Below are positions 1,893-34,865 of a stretch of DNA of 38,383 bases, piece by piece. The translations under genes were made by a program, and so were the position numbers. Where the stretch lies: the NCBI GenBank assembly GCA_903872185.1, contig CAIQJL010000198.1, positions 1 to 38,383 of the forward strand, given 5' to 3'. Below the pieces are notes generated by a model. The model saw only the letters and a list, made by a program, of their open reading frames with translations. It had not been told where the DNA came from and did no database searches. Source of the DNA: an uncultured Bacteroidota bacterium (GTDB lineage Bacteria > Bacteroidota > Bacteroidia > Bacteroidales > GWA2-32-17). Positions within the stretch are counted from its first letter, which is position 1. Every line of letters starts with the position of its first letter.

Positions 1893-3620
1893 TTATTCAA
1901 ATAAAACATTAGAAACCGAAGTGCCCGAAGGCACCATTGGAAAAACATTAGCTTCCTGCTCTACAATAACTTCTAAAAGATAAGTAGTTTTTGAATTAAG
2001 CATTTCTTCAATTGCTGTTTCTAGGTTTTCACGATTAGTAACTTTTTTTGCAGGTATATTATAGGCTTTTGCTATTGTTGTAAAATCAGGATTTTCCATT
2101 TCGGTAAAAGAATACCTTCCTTTAAAGAACAATTCCTGCCACTGCCGTACCATTCCTAAAAAACTATTATTCAGAATAACAATTTTAACGGGTAATTTTG
2201 TTTGATAACAAATCCCCAATTCCTGCATAGTCATTTGAAAACCGCCATCACCAAGAAAAGCAATAACCTCTCGTTCCGGAGTTCCCAGCTTTGCTCCAAA
2301 TGCAGCAGGTAAACCAAAACCCATTGTTCCGAGTCCTCCAGAAGTTACGAGGCTATTGTTTTTATTAAACTTATAATATCTGGCAGACAACATCTGGTGC
2401 TGACCAACATCTGTAACAACAACAGCTTCACCTTTTGTTTTTTCAGATATCATATGTATTACTTCACCCATATTTATTTTTTCTGTTGTTGGTGAAAATT
2501 GTTTTTTTATAACTTTATCAAATTCAATTTCATAGTCTCTGTAGAATTCTAATAACCAATAGTTGTATTTTTTGGTTTTAATTTCATTATTGAGAATTTG
2601 AAGAATTTCTTTAGCATCAGCGATTAATGCTACATCTACTAATACATTTTTATTTACCTCAGAAGCATCTATTTCAATATGAATAATTTTTGCCTGTTTT
2701 GCATATTGATTTAAATCACCTGTAACACGATCATCGAAACGCATTCCAATTGCTATTAGTAAATCGGCTTCATTAGTTTTTAAATTTGGTGCATAGTTTC
2801 CATGCATTCCAAGCATGCCAACATATAATTTATGATCCTGTGGAAATGAGGAAAGCCCAAGTAATGTAGAAGCAACAGGAATTCCCGATTTCTCAGCAAA
2901 TTGCAATAATTCATTACAAGCTTCAGAAAGAATTACTCCATGTCCTGCCAATATCATTGGCTTCTTGGCATTATTTATTAGTTCGACAGCAGTTTTGATT
3001 GCATTTAAATCTGGCTTTGGATAAGGAAAATAGCTTCGCAATTTTGTGCATTTTTCATAAACAAATTCAGCACACCCAAGTTGTGCATCCTTTGTTATAT
3101 TTACCAAAACTGGTCCGGGCCTTCCTGTATTTGCAGTGTAAAACGCTTTAGCAAGTACCTCAGAAATTTCTTCAGTTTTTGTAACCTGGTAATTCCATTT
3201 TGTTACAGGCATTGAAATACTAGTTATATCCTGCTCCTGAAAAGCGTCACTTCCTAATAATTTTGAATCAACCTGCCCAGTAATACAAACAATTGGTGTT
3301 GAATCTAACTGTGCATCAGCTAACCCTGTGATTAAATTTGTGGCACCTGGTCCTGAAGTAACAATACATACACCAGTTTTTCCTGAAGTTCTTGCATAAC
3401 CCTGAGCAGCATGTACAGCACCTTGTTCATGACGTGCCATTATATGATTTATTTTTTCTTTATAATCAAATAATGCATCATAAACAGGCATAATTGCACC
3501 GCCAACATAACCAAAAAGTATATCAACACCCTCTTCAACTAATGATTTCATTACTGCTTCTGCACCAGTAATTACTTTCTTAGAAACTATTGTTTCATTT
3601 TCTATTAAAGTTGTTTCCAT
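1893..3620 (-). CDS. ilvB: Acetolactate synthase large (catalytic) subunit
   Basis: This ThDP- and FAD-dependent enzyme condenses two pyruvates, or pyruvate with 2-oxobutyrate, in the first common step of branched-chain amino acid synthesis. At 575 aa it has the usual length. The catalytic glutamate is E65 in [16 protein letters not shown], followed by the conserved TSGPGATN. The FAD-domain motif RFDDRVTG is at 294-301. The ThDP/Mg motif runs from GDGG (457-460) to the double asparagine N484-N485. It lies 8 nt after ilvD and 10 nt before ilvN, so the two subunits should be made from one mRNA. The start is ATG, with no Shine-Dalgarno sequence, as is usual in this phylum. Confidence 0.97.
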
Positions 3621-3628
3621 TTTGTTTT

Positions 3629-5449
3629 CTATATTATTCTTATAGCACCTTTATCAGCTGATGAAACATGTTTTGCGTAAATCTGTAATGATTTTGAAAC
3701 ATTTCTTTTTCTATTTGCTGGTAAAAATGAATTCTCTTTTTTTTCTTTTTCAAAATTCATTCTTTGCTCAATTTCATCATTGCTTAGTAAAAGATTGATA
3801 CTTCGATTTAAAATATTAATTTCTATTTCATCTCCATTTTTAACAATAGCCAAAATGCCACCAGATGCAGCTTCTGGAGAAACATGTCCAATTGAAAGTC
3901 CTGATGTACCGCCTGAAAATCTTCCATCGGTTATTAATGCACATTTTTCACCTAGTCCTTTTGATTTTAAATAGGAGGTAGGATAAAGCATTTCCTGCAT
4001 ACCAGGTCCGCCACGAGGTCCTTCGTATCTTATTATAACTATATCTCCGGCTATCACTTTATCATTTAATATTCCATCACATGCTTCATCCTGAGAATCA
4101 AAAACTACAGCATTGCCTTTAAACTCCCATATAGATTTATTTACGCCCGCTGTTTTAACAATACATCCATCAGGAGCTAGATTACCAAAAAGAATTGCTA
4201 AACCACCTTCTTTGTGATATGCATTTTCGATATTTCTAACACATCCATTTTCTCTGTCATTATCTACTAAAACATTATAATTTTCCTGACTTCCTAATTT
4301 AGAATTACGATATCTACCAGGAGCGCTTAGCCAAAATTTATTTATTTCAGATTTTAATGAACTAAAACTATTTTCTTCAATTGCCTGAGATAAATTTAAT
4401 CCATCTACTCTTTTAACTTCTGGGAAGATTAAACCAGCTTTTTTTAGTTCACTTAAAATTGCTAAAACACCACCTGCTTTATGAACATCTTCTATGTAGT
4501 ATTTTGAGTTTGGTGAAACTTTGCATAAACAGGGAGTCTTTCTTGAAAGCTCATCAACATCTTTAATTGAAAATTCAACATCTGCTTCATTTGCAACTGC
4601 TAATAAATGCAAAATTGTATTTGACGATCCTCCCATTGCAATATCTAAAGTCATTGCATTTAAAAATGCTTGTCTATTAGCAATACTTCTTGGAAGAACA
4701 GTTTCGTCGCCATCTTGATAATATGCAAATGCAAGCTCAACTATTCTTTCTGCAGCATTTTCAAAAAGAGTTAATCTGTTTTTATGTGTTGCTAATAAAG
4801 TTCCATTTCCAGGAAGTGACAATCCCAAGGCTTCAGTCAAGCAATTCATTGAATTCGCAGTAAACATTCCTGAGCATGAACCACAGGTTGGACAAGCATT
4901 TTTTTCTACAGATAATAAATGTTCTTTAGAAACCGTTGGATTAGCGCCTAAAACCATTGCATCAACTAGATCATATTTATTCCCATCAATAAAACCTGCT
5001 TCCATTGGACCACCAGAAACAAATATTGTTGGAATATTAAGCCTCATTGCAGCCATCATCATTCCTGGAGTAATTTTATCACAATTACTAATGCAAATTA
5101 GCGCATCTGCCTTATGTGCATTACACATATATTCAACACTGTCAGCGATTATTTCTCTTGAGGGTAAAGAATATAACATTCCATCATGACCCATAGCTAT
5201 TCCATCATCTATTGCTATGGTATTAAATTCAGCAGCAAAGCAACCTTTGCTTTCTATTATTTCTTTTACCATTTGTCCAACATTATGAAGATGTACATGT
5301 CCCGGAACAAATTGAGTAAATGAATTTGCTATTGCAATTAAAGGTTTTCCCATTTGATCATCCTTCATCCCATTGGCTCGCCATAAGCTTCTAGCTCCGG
5401 CCATTTTGTTTCCTTCAATTGTTATTGAGCTTCTTAATTTATTTTTCAT
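3629..5449 (-). CDS. ilvD: Dihydroxy-acid dehydratase (IlvD)
   Basis: This Fe-S enzyme dehydrates 2,3-dihydroxy-isovalerate or -methylvalerate to the 2-oxo acid. The protein is 606 aa, the normal length. Expected active-site residues are present: D81 in [10 protein letters not shown]123-D124-K125 in SNCDKITPG (cluster ligand, Mg ligand and the lysine that is carbamylated in the family), and C192 in [12 protein letters not shown]486 and the [12 protein letters not shown] segment (511-522, catalytic serine) are also there. It is the first gene of the ilv operon. Its ATG at 5449 lies only about 12 nt after the U run of an attenuator hairpin, and it is followed by ilvB after 8 nt. Confidence 0.97.
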
Positions 5450-5460
5450 TGATTTAATAA

Positions 5461-5497
5461 AATTAAAAAGCCTTTCTTCGGTGTGAAGAAAGGCTTT
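5461..5497 (-). terminator. ilv attenuator terminator
   Basis: On the minus strand a perfect 13-bp stem, AAAGCCTTTCTTC / GAAGAAAGGCTTT, with a 5-nt loop (5480-5484) is followed by a U-rich tail (TTTTTAATTTT). It sits between the ilv promoter and the ilvD start codon, so it must be conditional. The 5' stem arm plus loop can alternatively pair with the upstream segment 5513-5523. Confidence 0.9.
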
Positions 5498-5512
5498 AAA
5501 TTATTATAATAG

Positions 5513-5523
5513 CTTTCCTCACC
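5513..5523 (-). promoter_or_regulatory. ilv antiterminator 5' arm
   Basis: On the minus strand this reads GGTGAGGAAAG. It can pair with CTTTCTTCACACC, the 5' arm and loop of the terminator, through 11 base pairs with one G-U wobble and a 2-nt bulge. That pairing would exclude the terminator hairpin. It overlaps the leader-peptide stop codon (5519-5521). A ribosome that finishes the peptide would therefore mask this arm, while one stalled on the isoleucine codons would leave it free. Confidence 0.75.
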
Positions 5524-5572
5524 CGTGGGGGATTTTAATAATGATAATATTAATGTTGATATTCATTTTCAT
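5519..5572 (-). CDS. ilv operon leader peptide (isoleucine-rich)
   Basis: This is a 17-codon open frame, ATG to TGA, encoding MKMNININIIIIKIPHG. Seven of 17 codons are isoleucine (ATT or ATC), four of them consecutive (5537-5548); none is leucine or valine. It lies in the 5' leader of ilvDBNC between a consensus promoter and a terminator hairpin. The arrangement is that of classical amino-acid attenuation leaders such as those of the enterobacterial his, ilv and thr operons: low charged Ile-tRNA stalls the ribosome, the antiterminator forms, and the operon is read. The peptide itself probably has no function. Translation is inferred from the architecture, not shown. Confidence 0.88.
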   Translation of the reverse strand: MKMNININIIIIKIPHG

Positions 5573-5580
5573 AAAATTTG

Positions 5581-5598
5581 CTGTCATTTTTTTGACAG
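5581..5598 (-). promoter_or_regulatory. Palindrome at the ilv transcription start
   Basis: CTGTCA and TGACAG are separated by six A/T bases just downstream of the -7 box, overlapping the expected start site (about 5595). It could be a 5'-end RNA hairpin or an operator half-site pair. The sequence does not decide between these. Confidence 0.45.
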
Positions 5599-5600
5599 TG

Positions 5601-5631
5601 CAAATTTAAGTCAGATAAAATGGTATTCAAA
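5601..5631 (-). promoter_or_regulatory. ilv operon promoter, Bacteroidetes consensus
   Basis: On the minus strand TTTG (5628-5631) is followed by exactly 19 nt and then TAAATTTG (5601-5608). This fits the -33/-7 consensus TTTG-N19-TAnnTTTG of Bacteroidetes housekeeping sigma factors. The transcript would start near 5595 and have a leader of about 145 nt before ilvD. Confidence 0.85.
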
Positions 5632-5909: not shown

Positions 5910-8900
5910 ATGAAAGCAAAAAGACTTAAATTACAAAGTTCTTTTAAACAGGTAAATGCAAAAGCATTTTTATTGAGTTTTTTATTATTTATTTCTATAA
6001 TTCAAGCGAATGCGCAAATTACCATTGATAATACAAAAACAAATGCACAATTAGTTACTCAATTATTAGGGTCTGGAGTAAGTGCTTCAAATGTAGTATT
6101 TAGAGGAGTCAGAAATGTAAGTTCAAGGTATCAGAATGGTGCATTTACCACAGCAACTACAACATTAGCTCAAATGGGTTTTACTGGTGGTGTAGTATTA
6201 TCAACAGGTAATACTTCAGACATTCCACTTACTTTAGGAACAAATCCAGGATCAGTTGGTCAAATGTCATATAATTATATTTCAGGAACTACTGGAGAAA
6301 TAAGACAAAGCAATCCTGTAGCTGGCCAAGATGCTGATGCCGATAATTTAGTAAATGTAAATTATTATAATGCAGCAATTTTAGAATTTGATTTTATTCC
6401 GGTTGGAGATGCTGTTTCATTTCGTTATATTTTTGGTTCAGAAGAATATTCAGATCAAAGTGGAATAATAAACTATCAATGTTCATCTTATAACGATAAA
6501 TTTGCTTTTTTAATAAGCGGTCCTGGAATAGTTGGAGGACAAGGATATACGAATGATGCAAGAAATATTGCAAGATTAAACAATGGAGCAGAAGTTGGAA
6601 TTAATTCTGTTAATGGCGGAGTAGTTGGATCTAGCGGTGGGTCTCCATCAGCAGCGAATTGTGAAGCAGCATCACTTACTGCATGGGTACAAAATACACC
6701 AAGTCCAGAGTATCTCGGACATATAGACGGAACAGAGTTAAATGGAAATACAAGAATATTAACTGCTTCTCAATCAGGATTAACTCCAGGGCAAACTTAT
6801 CATATTCGTTTACTTGTTACTGATGCAAATGACGGTGCTTATGATGCAGTTGTTTATATAGAAGCCGGAAGTTTTACAAGTCCAACAGCAACATTAACTA
6901 CAACAGCAACTCCATCAACAATTTGTTCAGGAAACAGCACTTATGCAAAAACAGTTGTTGCAAGCGGAACAGCACCATATAATTACACTTGGAGTAACGG
7001 AGTAACTCATTTAAATAGCGTAAACCCAAGTGATTCAATTTTAGTTTCACCTGGATCAACAACAACTTATACAGTAACAGTAGTTGACAGTCACTTACCA
7101 GTTGCAACTACATCAGTTGGTAGTGTCACAGTATCAGTAACACCTTTACCAACAGCATCTATTTCTTATACTGGTTCACCTTTTTGTACATCAGTTTCAC
7201 CAGTAAGTGTTAATTTAACTGGCACAAATGCATATACTAGCGGAACATATACTGCAAGCCCTGGGTTAACAATAAATGCTTCAAGTGGTTTAATAACTCC
7301 AGGCTCAAGTACTGCAGGTGGACCATATATTGTAACATATACTATTGCTGCATCAGGAGGATGTTCTGTTATTACTACAACTTCAAATGTTTCAATTTCC
7401 TCACCGGTAAGTCAAACTATTACTGGAGTTACTCAACTTTGTAATGGACTAACAAACACTTTTACAGTAAATCCTACTTCAGGTGGTACATGGACAAGTT
7501 CTTCTCCTGCAGTAGCGTCTGTTAATGCAACAACTGGATTGGTTACAGGATTAACCGCTGGTTCAACTACTATTTCATACAATGTTACAACTGGTGGTTG
7601 TGTAAATACTGCTACTCAAAATGTAACAATAACTTCACCCGTTACTCAATCTATTACTGGCACATCACAACTTTGTATAGGTGCTACAAATACTTATACA
7701 AATAGTCCAACTGCTGGTGGAACATGGTCAAGTTCAATACCTGTATTTGCAACAGTAAATTCTTCTGGTTTGGTAACAGGAATTGGATCAGGTACATCAG
7801 TAATTACATATAGTGTTACAACTACAGGAGGTTGTGTTAATACAGCGACACAAAACGTAACTATTTCAGCTCCTGTTTCCCAAACAATTACTGGAGCATC
7901 ATTACTTTGTAATGGATTAAATAATAATTTTACTGTAAGTCCTACATCAGGAGGAATATGGTCAAGTTCAGCTACAGGAGTAGCAACAGTTAATTCATCA
8001 ACTGGATTAGTTACTGGAGTTTCTGCTGGATCAACAAATATTATTTATACTGTTACAACTACAGGAGGATGTATTAATACAGCAACACAAAGTGTAACCA
8101 TAACAAGTCCAGTTTCGCAAACAATTACAGGAGCAACTCAATTATGCGATGACGCTATTACAAATTATTCAATAAGTCCAACAACAGGTGGATTATGGTC
8201 AAGCGGAACAACTGGAGTAGCAACAATTAATTCAACCTCGGGACTAATTTTAGGAGTTTCATCAGGAACTTCTACTATTACATATTCCGTAACAACTTCT
8301 GGAGGCTGTGTAAATACTGCAACACAAACCTTAACTGTAAATCCATTACCAAATGTTACAGCAACGAGTAGTGTTACATTAAACTCTGTTTGTAATGGTG
8401 GCAATGTAACATTAACTGGAGGAGGAGCAAATTCATATAGCTGGTCAGGCGGAGTTACAAATGGAGTTTCATTTACTCCGTCAGGAACAAATACATATAC
8501 TGTAATTGGTACTGATATTAATACCTGCCAGAATAATGCTCAAATTACTGTAACTGTAAATTCTTTACCAAATATTTCAATTTCAGGATTAATATTAGCA
8601 AATCCAACAGCATGTTTAGGAACGAATGGTCAAATTACTGGAATAACGGTAACAGGTGCACCAACAATTCAATATTCATGGAATGCTGGAGCTTCACAAT
8701 TATCTTCTGATTTAATTGGAGTACCTGCTGGCGCATATACTTTAGTAGCAACAGATGGAAATGGATGTGTTTCTTCTGTAGGACCATATTCACTTTCAGA
8801 TCCCGGAGCACCATCTGCACCAGTAATAAATATTTTAAGTGGACCTGTTTGCGAAGGAAGTCCATTTACATTATCAATAAACAATCCTAATGCATTAGCA

Positions 8901-11102
8901 ACTTATTCATGGACTGGCCCATCTGGTTCATTAGGTACTGGAACATCGATTACGGTTTCAAATGCAGCTCTTGCAGACGCAGGCTCATATTCTACACAAA
9001 CAACACTTGCAGGATGCACAGGTTCATCCAGTTCTACTGTTGTTTCAATTACTACTTTACCTGTTGCATCAATTTCATATTTTACACCATTTTGTTCTTC
9101 TAACACTAGCTCTCAACCAGTAAGTCAAGTTGGAACTGGCGGAGGAATTTTTTCTTCAAACAATGCTGGTTTAACATTAAATACATCAAACGGAGAGATA
9201 ATTCCTTCAACTAGTACTGCAGGGACATATATTGTTACCTATACAATTGCTGCAGCTGGTGGATGTGCCACAGTTACTTCTAAAGACACTATCGAAGTTA
9301 CAGCTTTGCCTACAGCAAATATTATTTATAACGGTTCACCATTTTGTTCAAATTTAACAGCAATTCAAAATGTTAATCTTACAGGAACAAGTGGCGGTTC
9401 ATACTCATCATCAGCTGGTTTAACATTAAGTACAACAAATGGGGAAATTACTCTTAATTCAAGTACTGCCGGAAATTACAACGTTACATACACAATACTT
9501 GCAGCAGGTGGATGTCCTTTAGTATCTTCAACAACTGGTGTATCTATAACAACCCTGCCGTCAGCAAATATAAGTTATAACGGGCCATATTGTTCTTCTG
9601 AATTAACTGCACAATCAGTTAATTTAACTGGAAATAGTGGTGGTATATATACATCAACATCAGGTTTAGATATTAATGCAACAACAGGTTCAGTAAATCC
9701 AGGGTTAAGTACATCTGGAAATTATAATGTTATATATACAATTAGTTCATCTGGGGGTTGTCCTGCTGTAATAGCTAACTCAAATGTTATTATAACTGAA
9801 TTACCAGTTGCAACAATATCTTATACTGGACCATATTGCTCTTCATTAGTAACTGCACAATCTGTGAACTTGGCTGGAAATAGTGGAGGAATATATTCTG
9901 CACTTGCCGGTCTAGATATTAATTCAACTTCAGGATCAATAAATCCTGGATTAAGTATAGCTGGTAATTACAATGTAACATATACAATAGCAGCCTCAGG
10001 AGGATGTCCAATAGTAAATGCTTTAACAAATGTTACAATAACTGAATTGCCGGTTGCCAGCATTTCATATACTGGATCACCATTTTGTACAAATAATAGT
10101 AATTTACAATTGGTGGTTTTTACTGGAACAACTGGAGGTATATATTCAACAACAACATCGGGTTTAAGTATTGATGTTAATTCAGGAGCAATAAACCCAA
10201 TATCAAGTTCCGAAGGAAATTATACAATAATATATACAATTCCTGCTGCTGGAGGTTGCTCTGATGTTAATGCAAATACAAGTATTGAGATTGTAAAATC
10301 TGTTACTCCTACAACAGTATTTAATTATAATACACCGGTATGTTCTAATGGAACAAATCCAATTCCTTTGACAATTGCAAATTTTACAACAGGAGGAACT
10401 TATTCTTCTACTTCAGGATTAAGTATTGATGCAAATTCTGGAGTAATAAATTTAACAAATACTACTCCCGGAAATTATACTGTAACATATTCAATTGCGC
10501 CTTCAGGTTGTCTTTTAGCTGGTAGTAATATTTCAAATATAACAATTGACCAAACTATAATACCTGTAACTGGTTTTTCATATGAAATACCTGAATGTGT
10601 TGATGGTACTACACCAAATCCAGTAACTATAAGTGGGTTTACTATAGGTGGAACATATTCTTCATTACCTTTAGGGTTAACCATTGATGCAATTACTGGT
10701 GCAGTAAATTTATTGTCAAGTATAGAAGGAAACTATACTGTTACATATTCAATAGCTTCTAATGGGTGCTCGTTAGCCGGAAATAGTAACGATGATGTTA
10801 TCATTAACAGAGAAGGATGTTTAAATATACCAACTGCTTTTTCGCCAAATAATGATGGAGTAAATGACACCTGGGAAATTGAACATATAAATTTATATGC
10901 AGAAGTCTCAATTGAGATATATAATCGTTGGGGGCAATTAATGTTTGAGTTTTCGGGTACCGGGGATAGTTATGCTACTCTTGATAATCAGTGGGATGGT
11001 AAATATGAAGGAAAAGATTTACCTATAAATTCATTTATTTTTATTGTTAACCTTCATAACGATAAGGAACCAATTCAAGGAATAGTAACAATAGTTAAAT
11101 AA
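5910..11102 (+). CDS. Giant secreted adhesin-like protein with choice-of-anchor L, Ig-like repeats and CHU_C (T9SS type B) end
   Basis: The protein is 1730 aa. A signal peptide ends at about residue 36 (QANAQ). Residues about 37-320 form a choice-of-anchor L domain with FRYIFGSEEYSD and the HIRLLVTDANDG-type segment. Next come four ~78-aa Big_2-like repeats (about 498-812), a PKD-like and a SprB-like module, and an Ig module (about 970-1048). There are eight repeats of the type LPxASISYxGxPFC (about 65-75 aa): one before the Big_2 block and seven near 1050-1630. The last ~95 residues are a gliding-motility C-terminal domain (IPTAFSPNNDGVNDTW, YNRWGQLMFE, WDGKYEGK). It is probably exported by T9SS and anchored at the cell surface, acting in adhesion or motility. 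The PorP/SprF gene follows after 8 nt. The exact ligand is unknown. Confidence 0.9.
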   Translation: MKAKRLKLQSSFKQVNAKAFLLSFLLFISIIQANAQITIDNTKTNAQLVTQLLGSGVSASNVVFRGVRNVSSRYQNGAFTTATTTLAQMGFTGGVVLSTGNTSDIPLTLGTNPGSVGQMSYNYISGTTGEIRQSNPVAGQDADADNLVNVNYYNAAILEFDFIPVGDAVSFRYIFGSEEYSDQSGIINYQCSSYNDKFAFLISGPGIVGGQGYTNDARNIARLNNGAEVGINSVNGGVVGSSGGSPSAANCEAASLTAWVQNTPSPEYLGHIDGTELNGNTRILTASQSGLTPGQTYHIRLLVTDANDGAYDAVVYIEAGSFTSPTATLTTTATPSTICSGNSTYAKTVVASGTAPYNYTWSNGVTHLNSVNPSDSILVSPGSTTTYTVTVVDSHLPVATTSVGSVTVSVTPLPTASISYTGSPFCTSVSPVSVNLTGTNAYTSGTYTASPGLTINASSGLITPGSSTAGGPYIVTYTIAASGGCSVITTTSNVSISSPVSQTITGVTQLCNGLTNTFTVNPTSGGTWTSSSPAVASVNATTGLVTGLTAGSTTISYNVTTGGCVNTATQNVTITSPVTQSITGTSQLCIGATNTYTNSPTAGGTWSSSIPVFATVNSSGLVTGIGSGTSVITYSVTTTGGCVNTATQNVTISAPVSQTITGASLLCNGLNNNFTVSPTSGGIWSSSATGVATVNSSTGLVTGVSAGSTNIIYTVTTTGGCINTATQSVTITSPVSQTITGATQLCDDAITNYSISPTTGGLWSSGTTGVATINSTSGLILGVSSGTSTITYSVTTSGGCVNTATQTLTVNPLPNVTATSSVTLNSVCNGGNVTLTGGGANSYSWSGGVTNGVSFTPSGTNTYTVIGTDINTCQNNAQITVTVNSLPNISISGLILANPTACLGTNGQITGITVTGAPTIQYSWNAGASQLSSDLIGVPAGAYTLVATDGNGCVSSVGPYSLSDPGAPSAPVINILSGPVCEGSPFTLSINNPNALATYSWTGPSGSLGTGTSITVSNAALADAGSYSTQTTLAGCTGSSSSTVVSITTLPVASISYFTPFCSSNTSSQPVSQVGTGGGIFSSNNAGLTLNTSNGEIIPSTSTAGTYIVTYTIAAAGGCATVTSKDTIEVTALPTANIIYNGSPFCSNLTAIQNVNLTGTSGGSYSSSAGLTLSTTNGEITLNSSTAGNYNVTYTILAAGGCPLVSSTTGVSITTLPSANISYNGPYCSSELTAQSVNLTGNSGGIYTSTSGLDINATTGSVNPGLSTSGNYNVIYTISSSGGCPAVIANSNVIITELPVATISYTGPYCSSLVTAQSVNLAGNSGGIYSALAGLDINSTSGSINPGLSIAGNYNVTYTIAASGGCPIVNALTNVTITELPVASISYTGSPFCTNNSNLQLVVFTGTTGGIYSTTTSGLSIDVNSGAINPISSSEGNYTIIYTIPAAGGCSDVNANTSIEIVKSVTPTTVFNYNTPVCSNGTNPIPLTIANFTTGGTYSSTSGLSIDANSGVINLTNTTPGNYTVTYSIAPSGCLLAGSNISNITIDQTIIPVTGFSYEIPECVDGTTPNPVTISGFTIGGTYSSLPLGLTIDAITGAVNLLSSIEGNYTVTYSIASNGCSLAGNSNDDVIINREGCLNIPTAFSPNNDGVNDTWEIEHINLYAEVSIEIYNRWGQLMFEFSGTGDSYATLDNQWDGKYEGKDLPINSFIFIVNLHNDKEPIQGIVTIVK
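7401..8343 (+). repeat. Four tandem Big_2-type repeats (~235 bp each)
   Basis: Units begin near 7401, 7634, 7869 and 8106. Each encodes S/APVxQxITG...LC...SGGxWSS...VATVNSxTGLVTG...TTxGGCxNTATQ. They are coding repeats within the 1730-aa adhesin and a likely place for recombination or copy-number change. Confidence 0.85.
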
Positions 11103-11110
11103 ATAGTAAT

Positions 11111-12019
11111 ATGAAAACAATAATAATATCAATATTACTTATTTCAATAACGATAATAGGTAATTCTCAACAACAATCACTTTTTAGCCAATATTTATTT
11201 AACGGATTTTTAATAAACCCTGCAATTGCTGGAAGTGATTCTAAATCTCCAATTCAATTAACTGCCAGAGAACAATGGGCAGGGATTGACGGTGCTCCAT
11301 CTACTCAAGCAATAAGTGGACATACTTCTTTAGGTTTAAAAGAATCAGTTGGAGTAGGAGGGTATTTATATAATGATTTGTTTGGACCAGTTAGTAGAGC
11401 AGGTATACATGGAGCTTTTGCATATCATATTAACATTTCTCCAAACACAAAACTTGCATTTGGTTTATCATTATCAGTATTTCAATATAAGATAAATGAA
11501 AATGGTTTAAATATTATTAATGCCAATGATGTTGCTATTACAGGTAAAACCGAAGCTGCATTAGCTCCTGATGCTAATTTTGGATTATATTTATATAACA
11601 ATAAATATTTTGTTGGTTTATCATCAACTCAAATTTTGTCTTCAAAATTAAATTTAAATGATGCATATAATTTAAGTAATGTTACAAGACACTATTATTT
11701 TCTATCAGGATATAAATTTGAAATTAGTAAAAGTATTGATATAGAACCTTCGGTTCTTTTAAAACTAACTGAATACAATCCATTCCAAATAGATATTAAT
11801 GCCAAAATATATTATCAAAAAAATTATTGGCTTGGATTTTCGTATAGGACAGATGATGCAATGGTTGTAATGTTAGGATTAAAACTTGATAGGTATAAAA
11901 TAGGATATGCTTTTGATTATACTACTAGTAATCTGTCAAATTACACCTATGGTTCACATGAAATAATGCTAGGAATAGAATTAAGTAAACCTAAGAATTC
12001 TAGAAAAGTGTTGGATTAA
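11111..12019 (+). CDS. PorP/SprF family T9SS-associated membrane protein
   Basis: The protein is 302 aa with an N-terminal signal peptide (about 1-19, ending GNSQ). The hallmark opening of the family follows: QQSLFSQYLFNGFLINPAIAGS, then LTAREQWAGIDGAPSTQAISGHTSL, with repeated amphipathic strands of an outer-membrane barrel. Family members such as SprF act with a neighbouring CHU_C-domain adhesin such as SprB in its export or surface attachment. It starts 8 nt after the giant gene, so the two are almost certainly co-transcribed and this is the likely dedicated partner. Its end lies only 6 nt from the convergent gene at 12026, with no hairpin terminator visible between them. Confidence 0.92.
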   Translation: MKTIIISILLISITIIGNSQQQSLFSQYLFNGFLINPAIAGSDSKSPIQLTAREQWAGIDGAPSTQAISGHTSLGLKESVGVGGYLYNDLFGPVSRAGIHGAFAYHINISPNTKLAFGLSLSVFQYKINENGLNIINANDVAITGKTEAALAPDANFGLYLYNNKYFVGLSSTQILSSKLNLNDAYNLSNVTRHYYFLSGYKFEISKSIDIEPSVLLKLTEYNPFQIDINAKIYYQKNYWLGFSYRTDDAMVVMLGLKLDRYKIGYAFDYTTSNLSNYTYGSHEIMLGIELSKPKNSRKVLD

Positions 12020-34506: not shown

Positions 34507-34511
34507 CAAAT

Positions 34512-34855
34512 AGCAGACTGTTCTATCGCTCCGTATTTATGCGGGGAGGAAAGTCCGGGCAGCGCAGAGCATCACGCTTCTTAATTGGAAGATACCTGCG
34601 AGGGTATAGCCATGCAACAGAAAATAACCGCCACAATTTATTGTGGTAAGGGTGAAAAGGCGGGGTAAGGGCCCACCAGTGTTGTGGTAACACAATAGCT
34701 GTGTAACTTGTGAGCTGCAAGACCATGTAAACCGACGCTATAGGGTTGCTCGCCCAATGTCGGAGGGTAGGTTGCTAGATTTCGTGAGCGATTGCGAAAC
34801 AAGACAAATGATAGAAGTCCTTTAGGGGAAACAGAACCCGGCTTATAGGTTTGCT
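34512..34855 (+). ncRNA. rnpB: RNase P RNA (bacterial class A)
   Basis: This is the catalytic RNA of RNase P, which matures tRNA 5' ends. Conserved blocks are all visible: GAGGAAAGTCCGGGC (about 34546-34560), the AGGGTGAAAAGGCGGGGTAA segment followed by GGGCCCACCAG (about 34649-34680), GAGGGTAGGTTGC-type sequence near 34762, and ACAGAACCCGGCTTATAG (34831-34848). The ends pair as helix P1: AGCAGAC (34512-34518) with GTTTGCT (34849-34855), one G-U pair. The length is about 344 nt, normal for class A. A bidirectional terminator follows. An open frame on the opposite strand is a by-product of the RNA. Confidence 0.95.
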
Positions 34856-34865
34856 TTTTAAAATT

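Follow-up and report, generated by a model that had tools for sequence, protein, structure and literature searches.

A candidate isoleucine-responsive leader-peptide attenuator upstream of ilvDBNC in Bacteroidales and its relatives across the order

The enterobacterial ilv operons (ilvGMEDA and ilvBN), like the thr, his, leu and trp operons, are controlled by leader-peptide attenuators. Candidate attenuators in Bacteroidetes/Chlorobi are reportedly mentioned in the abstract of Vitreschak et al. 2004 (FEMS Microbiol Lett), and Weinberg et al. 2017 (NAR) is said to list a Bacteroidetes trp leader candidate.

In Flavobacterium psychrophilum the regions ahead of amino-acid operons have given strong indications of leader-peptide attenuation, and 5′ elements lacking Rfam hits are named there at pheA and hisG (PMC9723704). 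Short ORFs reminiscent of leader peptides were noted in Bacteroides thetaiotaomicron (PMC7366714). In Staphylococcus aureus a leucine-rich ilv attenuator peptide restricts expression of the branched-chain operon (PMC5794164), and the Salmonella mgtCBR leader carries tandem attenuators with two short ORFs (PMC3641672). The main text of the Flavobacterium study contains no ilv leader, with 0 occurrences of both "ilv" and "isoleucine". A sequence-only reading of the locus analysed below was aware of no described example of this exact leader in Bacteroidota. For the ilv leader this agrees with our search of a literature library, which returned no description of a Bacteroidales ilv leader element, but leader-peptide attenuation as such had already been suggested in Flavobacterium (PMC9723704).

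The ilvDBNC operon and its leader

The window is the whole stretch of DNA that was analysed, 38,383 nucleotides from an uncultured member of the Bacteroidales. Its minus strand carries four genes, originally proposed as an ilvDBNC operon, whose names were confirmed by NCBIfam models, each scoring above its cut-off. These are ilvD, the first operon gene, for dihydroxy-acid dehydratase (3629–5449, ATG at 5449; NF009103, 1009 bits, cut-off 710); ilvB, for the acetolactate synthase large subunit (1893–3620; TIGR00118, 717 bits, cut-off 538); ilvN, for the small subunit (1340–1948; TIGR00119, 97 bits, cut-off 57); and ilvC, for ketol-acid reductoisomerase (284–1327; TIGR00465, 328 bits, cut-off 226). 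The true ilvN start is probably downstream of 1948, because the family match begins at residue 28. The next large upstream ORF (5910 onward, plus strand) is divergent from ilvD, so there is no co-oriented neighbour for a terminator in between to serve. It encodes a 1730-aa repetitive protein (5910–11102, plus strand) and is followed by a gene for a 302-aa protein (11111–12019, plus strand), which from its appearance we presume to resemble PorP/SprF-type membrane proteins. An Rfam scan of the whole window returned only a bacterial RNase P class A RNA (34510–34861, plus strand, 241 bits) at gathering score.

Upstream of ilvD, a promoter-like site was read as TTTG (5631–5628), N19 and TAAATTTG (5608–5601), spanning 5601–5631 on the minus strand. 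Sites of this type we take to be the Bacteroidota promoter consensus, and the promoter ahead of the leader ORF was assigned by consensus match only. Sequence and folding place a small 5′ hairpin, CTGTCA-AAAAAA-TGACAG (5581–5598, minus strand), near the predicted transcript start. This inverted repeat was considered as an operator and rejected, its arms being poorly kept in the sister genome. The predicted leader peptide gene (5519–5572, minus strand; ATG 5572–5570, TGA 5521–5519), read from sequence and from the sister genome, is a short ORF with a run of end-product codons. It encodes MKMNININIIIIKIPHG, 17 codons with seven isoleucines (ATT/ATC only), no leucine and no valine. A second in-frame ATG (5587–5585) would give a 22-codon peptide beginning MTANF-MKMN..., and the sister genome leader has an in-frame upstream ATG too. 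The start codon may be either ATG 5572 or ATG 5587; of the 17-codon peptide first proposed, the composition stands and the start may have to be moved.

The stop codon is overlapped by a candidate antiterminator arm, GTGAGGAAAGCT (5511–5522, minus strand), recognized by pairing score, folding and covariation, which can pair with the 5′ arm of an intrinsic terminator located between the leader ORF and ilvD. The terminator (5467–5497, minus strand), identified by folding and covariation, joins arms 5497–5485 and 5479–5467 in 13 perfect pairs around the loop ACACC (5484–5480), and a U-rich tail, TTAATTTTATT (5466–5456, minus strand), follows. The antiterminator arm begins 11 nt past the first base of the last isoleucine codon. 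Both alternative folds are stable: the terminator with its flanks folded at −19.0 kcal/mol (z −8.05), and the antiterminator arm with the terminator 5′ arm alone at −15.5 kcal/mol (z −4.0). The best antiterminator duplex scored 23.5, as high as none of 60 shuffles. In 2000 dinucleotide shuffles of 5450–5620, the terminator score alone was reached by 0, the antiterminator score alone by 0, seven of one control residue within 12 codons by two, and terminator, antiterminator and codon run together by 0; this test counted I, L, V, H, W, F or T as control residues and excluded the promoter. The perfect 13-bp terminator with its U tail before ilvD and the antiterminator arm over the peptide stop, both proposed by the sequence-only reading, were borne out.

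A leader that binds tRNA, as a T-box does, or a metabolite was weighed against these features. Some Firmicutes place ilv-type operons under T-box control, which is the point in favour of such a leader. Against it, no T-box, riboswitch or Rfam leader family reached gathering score at the window leader, where Thr_leader scored 18.8 bits against a gathering score of 55; the 16 weak matches in the region included no T-box, and the conserved element consists of a mini-ORF and two simple helices. We regard a tRNA- or metabolite-binding leader as extremely improbable.

Leaders and alternative helices across Bacteroidales

An ilvD of the window's type was present in 119 of 295 genomes of the order and in only two of ten within the window's own family; a class-wide search matched 5 of 149 genomes (E ≤ 1e-150), all of them the window's genome or of the same order. 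We used 118 upstream regions, 88 of them about 700 nt or less in length. G092 and G204 were left out (upstream off contig or partial gene), as was a second G226 copy, and G144 contributed two loci. Strong terminators were found in 92 of the 118 regions; 26 had none above cut-off, some of them being without both leader and terminator. A significant antiterminator arm, sought as a segment at most 75 nt upstream able to pair with the terminator 5′ arm, was present in 73 of the 92 terminator-bearing regions (p ≤ 0.05, judged on 60 shuffles). An I/L/V-rich mini-ORF ending near that arm, with at least seven of 12 residues I, L or V, was found in 84 of the 92 regions versus 154 of 1840 shuffles, the remaining eight regions failing this leader test. 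Because shuffles pass the test 8% of the time, a few of the 84 leaders may be chance cases. Where ilvD lies behind leuA (G237), the leader MTNNSIHILVISLILLDNSGR and its terminator precede leuA instead; where ilvA lies directly before ilvD (G148), ilvA showed neither a leader nor a terminator in front of it.

The leader of the sister genome, MKMNINIIIIKIPLG, has six isoleucines and one leucine in the scored stretch. It differs from the window leader by one 6-nt in-frame indel, silent Lys/Pro codon changes and one His/Leu difference. Conservation of the leader peptide in relatives, which had been suggested as a check, was thus seen both in this Ile-rich sister peptide and in the I/L/V-rich peptides of the survey. 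Across the 84 leaders, the median distance from the first base of the last control codon to the start of the antiterminator arm is 15 nt, and the arm starts a median 1 nt ahead of the stop codon; in 68 leaders the arm either overlaps the stop or begins no more than 6 nt away. With a ribosome footprint of the size known from E. coli, this spacing would leave the arm free under a stalled ribosome and covered under a terminating one. The geometry first read from the window is therefore kept across the family. The motif TANNTTTG was found 45–150 nt upstream of the arm in 69 of the 84 leaders, against about 10 expected from shuffles, and 66 of the 69 sites fall 80–114 nt from the arm; the promoter claimed for the window (TTTG-N19-..., 5631–5601) has its counterpart in these sites.

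Covariation was assessed by swapping arms between leaders. The terminator arm paired with the upstream region of its own leader at a mean score of 19.1, versus 15.65 when swapped (sd 0.27), and none of 5000 permutations was as high as the real pairing. Swap controls gave no gain on the reverse strand (11.3 versus 11.1) or in the region further upstream (10.8 versus 11.2). When 78 of the 84 leaders were aligned by sequence alone, duplicates and odd lengths having been removed, two-sided changes occurred at 7 of the 9 pairs of the antiterminator and at 10 of the 11 of the terminator, and the true register exceeded every slid register in cells paired and in covariation score. For the antiterminator, 17 of 500 shuffles and one of the slid registers also reached seven two-sided pairs, and the count is favoured by the aligned segments beginning at the best-pairing arm, a bias of which the arm-swap test is free. 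Covarying antiterminator examples are GAATGG/CCATTC, GAAAGG/CCTTTC and AATCGG/CCGATT. Both helices thus covary in relatives, the second check that had been proposed, and the covariation shows conservation of an antiterminator helix that is mutually exclusive with the terminator.

The same approach was applied to a protector arm, a segment within the leader that pairs with the antiterminator arm (1:2 pairing). Over the 84 leaders its score was 15.9 within the same leader versus 14.3 when swapped (sd 0.25, 0 of 3000 permutations), and an earlier form of the test with a 3-nt overlap gave the same direction. The window and its sister lack a clear arm of this kind, scoring 8.5 and 9.0 against the family mean of 15.9. 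A protector arm is not known to be obligatory in every described attenuator, and we did not weigh its lack against classing the leader as one.

A family covariance model was built from 78 leaders and tested on 68 of 80 named loci, 12 having been left out by eye as likely duplicates. By record title the 68 comprised 50 Bacteroidota, 17 from other phyla and one Chlorobiota; none contains a training sequence exactly, and near relatives are possible among them. The model matched 37 of the 50 Bacteroidota loci (E ≤ 0.05), in genera including Draconibacterium, Maribellus, Mangrovibacterium and Carboxylicivirga. Thirteen were missed, three of them with weaker matches (E 0.07–0.8) and one, L192, with a match only downstream of ilvD. 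It matched none of the 17 ilvD homologues labelled Spirochaetes, Desulfobulbus and kin, Fibrobacter or Chitinispirillaceae, nor the single Chlorobiota locus. Of the 118 survey loci, 94 gave a match at E ≤ 0.05 (53 of 60 and 41 of 58), most of these 94 being training sequences. The window locus is the best match in its own genome. At weak scores the model is unspecific, with 24 matches at E ≤ 1 in G000; matches elsewhere in G000 (C363) and in G008 (C59) looked by eye like gene-end terminators and were rejected.

These results bear on a simpler reading, in which the hairpin is a constitutive terminator or an RNA-processing element and the mini-ORF is incidental. The rate at which shuffles pass the leader test speaks for it. 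It is opposed by the arm-swap covariation, by the way control codons, stop codon and arm are spaced, by the in-frame indel between the window and sister leaders, and by the failure of the model to match the 17 homologues of other phyla. We consider it very improbable and favour ribosome-mediated attenuation.

Several loci carry tandem model matches before ilvD: L123 (956–1480), L125 (1266–1475), L127 (1148–1470), L128 (442–704), L133 (1264–1475) and L139 (1232–1469), and also L016, L077, L110, L118, L063 and L048. In most cases each of the two units encodes an I/L/V-rich peptide of its own, and the terminators of the pair differ in sequence. The leading unit is weak in L110 and in L048; L063 has two matches and two I/L/V-rich mini-ORFs. 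The ilv leader model also matches before a gltB-like gene (glutamate synthase by eye) in L224 (G072) and L226 (G268), where the mini-ORFs are MKTKHTSFANKHAYKHNKIVQ and MKHTILVLKHKWNHLKKMT. At other amino-acid operons, hisG is preceded by His-containing mini-ORFs with terminators in G009, G176 and G268, and leuA by I/L-rich mini-ORFs with terminators in G176 and G268; the window's own genome gave no hisG match. Before hisG of G268 (L203, about 1200–1490) there are two tandem His-rich mini-ORFs, one ending NNRHHHHG and the other MKKQHHHLHHHLLQK, each followed by a terminator-like hairpin.

Isoleucine codons and gene content

Control codons for isoleucine only are found in the window alone among the 84 leaders. 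Residue totals over the family are 260 I, 254 L and 287 V, most leaders mixing all three, and the Ile share among control codons is higher where GC is lower (r −0.42). Both observations would suit an attenuator that is not Ile-specific in practice, its isoleucine codons being the AT-rich drift of a general I/L/V sensor while other regulators decide. On the other side, the seven leaders whose operon contains or adjoins ilvA have a greater Ile share than the other 77 (Mann-Whitney p 0.001), also after regressing on GC. The comparison is post hoc, counts the window by inference and leaves phylogeny uncontrolled, and one ilvA-linked leader, that of G230, is an exception with only 25% Ile; we treat the association as a lead. 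In addition, the IIII run and the absence of valine are kept in two genomes, though GTT is one step from ATT. We judge AT-rich drift to be an unlikely explanation, and isoleucine sensing remains the preferred one.

Gene content was compared with these codons. No leuA was found in the window genome or its sister, whose best matches scored 48 and 45 bits where the cut-off is 598.7, that of the window genome resembling HMG-CoA lyase, and no leuC was above cut-off in either. Seven of the 119 ilvD genomes lack a leuA match at 1e-60, namely the window and sister genomes, three others at least 92% complete and two below 80%; four more have a paralogue-level match only. In the sister genome, ilvA (threonine ammonia-lyase) follows ilvC. 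In the window genome ilvA is found at the beginning of contig C352, whose first 131 bases match window positions 229–100 at 98%. The segment after ilvC (60–270) belongs to a dispersed repeat family with ten matches in the genome, including the window's own, and this repeat probably broke the contig. Because the overlap of C352 with the window belongs to the repeat, adjacency of ilvA is taken from the sister genome only; the operon may continue into ilvA beyond the window.

The idea that leucine codons track leuA was rejected, since an operon that includes leuA goes with only a slight increase in Leu share (p 0.07). Leaders of such operons are instead richer in Ile (p 0.005) and poorer in Val (p 0.001). 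This comparison used 82 of the 84 leaders (14 linked, 62 unlinked, six without leuA), two with leuA 10–12 kb away having been dropped; its species are non-independent, its groups post hoc and its linkage assigned by eye, and short contigs may count as unlinked. As an exploratory lead, Ile-only sensing would fit the missing leuA and leuC and the position of ilvA beside ilvC in the sister.

Proposed mechanism and comparison with known systems

The leader is very probably a ribosome-mediated transcription attenuator that senses isoleucyl-tRNA upstream of ilvDBNC. The sequence-only reading had reached the same mechanism, and it is supported by the components and how they are spaced, by their conservation and by covariation in the two helices. 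Transcription would start just downstream of the promoter-like site, near 5601, with a ribosome translating the Ile-rich peptide behind RNA polymerase. When Ile-tRNA is scarce, the ribosome would stall on the isoleucine codons and leave the arm 5522–5511 free to pair with the terminator 5′ arm (5497–5485); the terminator would then not form and ilvDBNC, perhaps with ilvA, would be transcribed. When Ile-tRNA is plentiful, a ribosome at the stop codon would cover the arm, the 13-bp terminator would form and transcription would end before ilvD. Peptide translation, stalling, readthrough and the isoleucine response are all inferred here from the DNA. Because the protector arm is missing, a window leader that went untranslated would be expected to read through rather than terminate, so that termination in the window without leader translation is not assured.

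The comparative evidence is strong that branched-chain amino-acid synthesis is under classical attenuation in many members of the Bacteroidales, a major order of gut and environmental bacteria. This would imply transcription–translation coupling in Bacteroidota, and could offer an amino-acid-responsive switch for Bacteroidota genetics. With its many members and with control codons that differ according to gene content, the family could also serve to study how the specificity of an attenuator changes. Bacteroidota ribosomes are reported to sequester their anti-Shine-Dalgarno, so initiation at the leader should not be the same as in enterobacteria. A broader proposal, which we advance tentatively and would not yet bet on, is that Bacteroidales branched-chain operons are under a widespread, uncatalogued RNA element, leader-peptide attenuators retuned by codon replacement and working in bacteria with ribosomes independent of Shine-Dalgarno pairing; the window lineage, in which leucine synthesis appears to have been lost and, judging from the sister genome, ilvA is beside ilvC, would be Ile-only, without a protector arm and ON by default if untranslated, and several relatives would be tandem. 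If true, close coupling of RNA polymerase and ribosome would be implied in such bacteria.

The window differs from the enterobacterial attenuators in its phylum, in having Ile-only control codons, in having no Rfam leader family at gathering score, and in lacking a clear additional arm by which transcription would terminate when the leader is untranslated. Common to the window and the enterobacterial ilv attenuators are an ORF of control codons, mutually exclusive antiterminator and terminator helices, and a terminator before the first ilv gene. Salmonella mgtCBR is like some relatives of the window in having two short ORFs per leader, and unlike the present case in its genes and signals, the window having a single unit (PMC3641672). 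The S. aureus peptide likewise limits a branched-chain operon from its leader, whereas it is leucine-rich, comes from a Firmicute and is combined with CodY (PMC5794164). F. psychrophilum belongs to the same phylum as the window and to another family, Flavobacteriaceae (PMC9723704). Leader-peptide attenuation is an already known mechanism, and the Bacteroidales ilv element is very probably another case of it.
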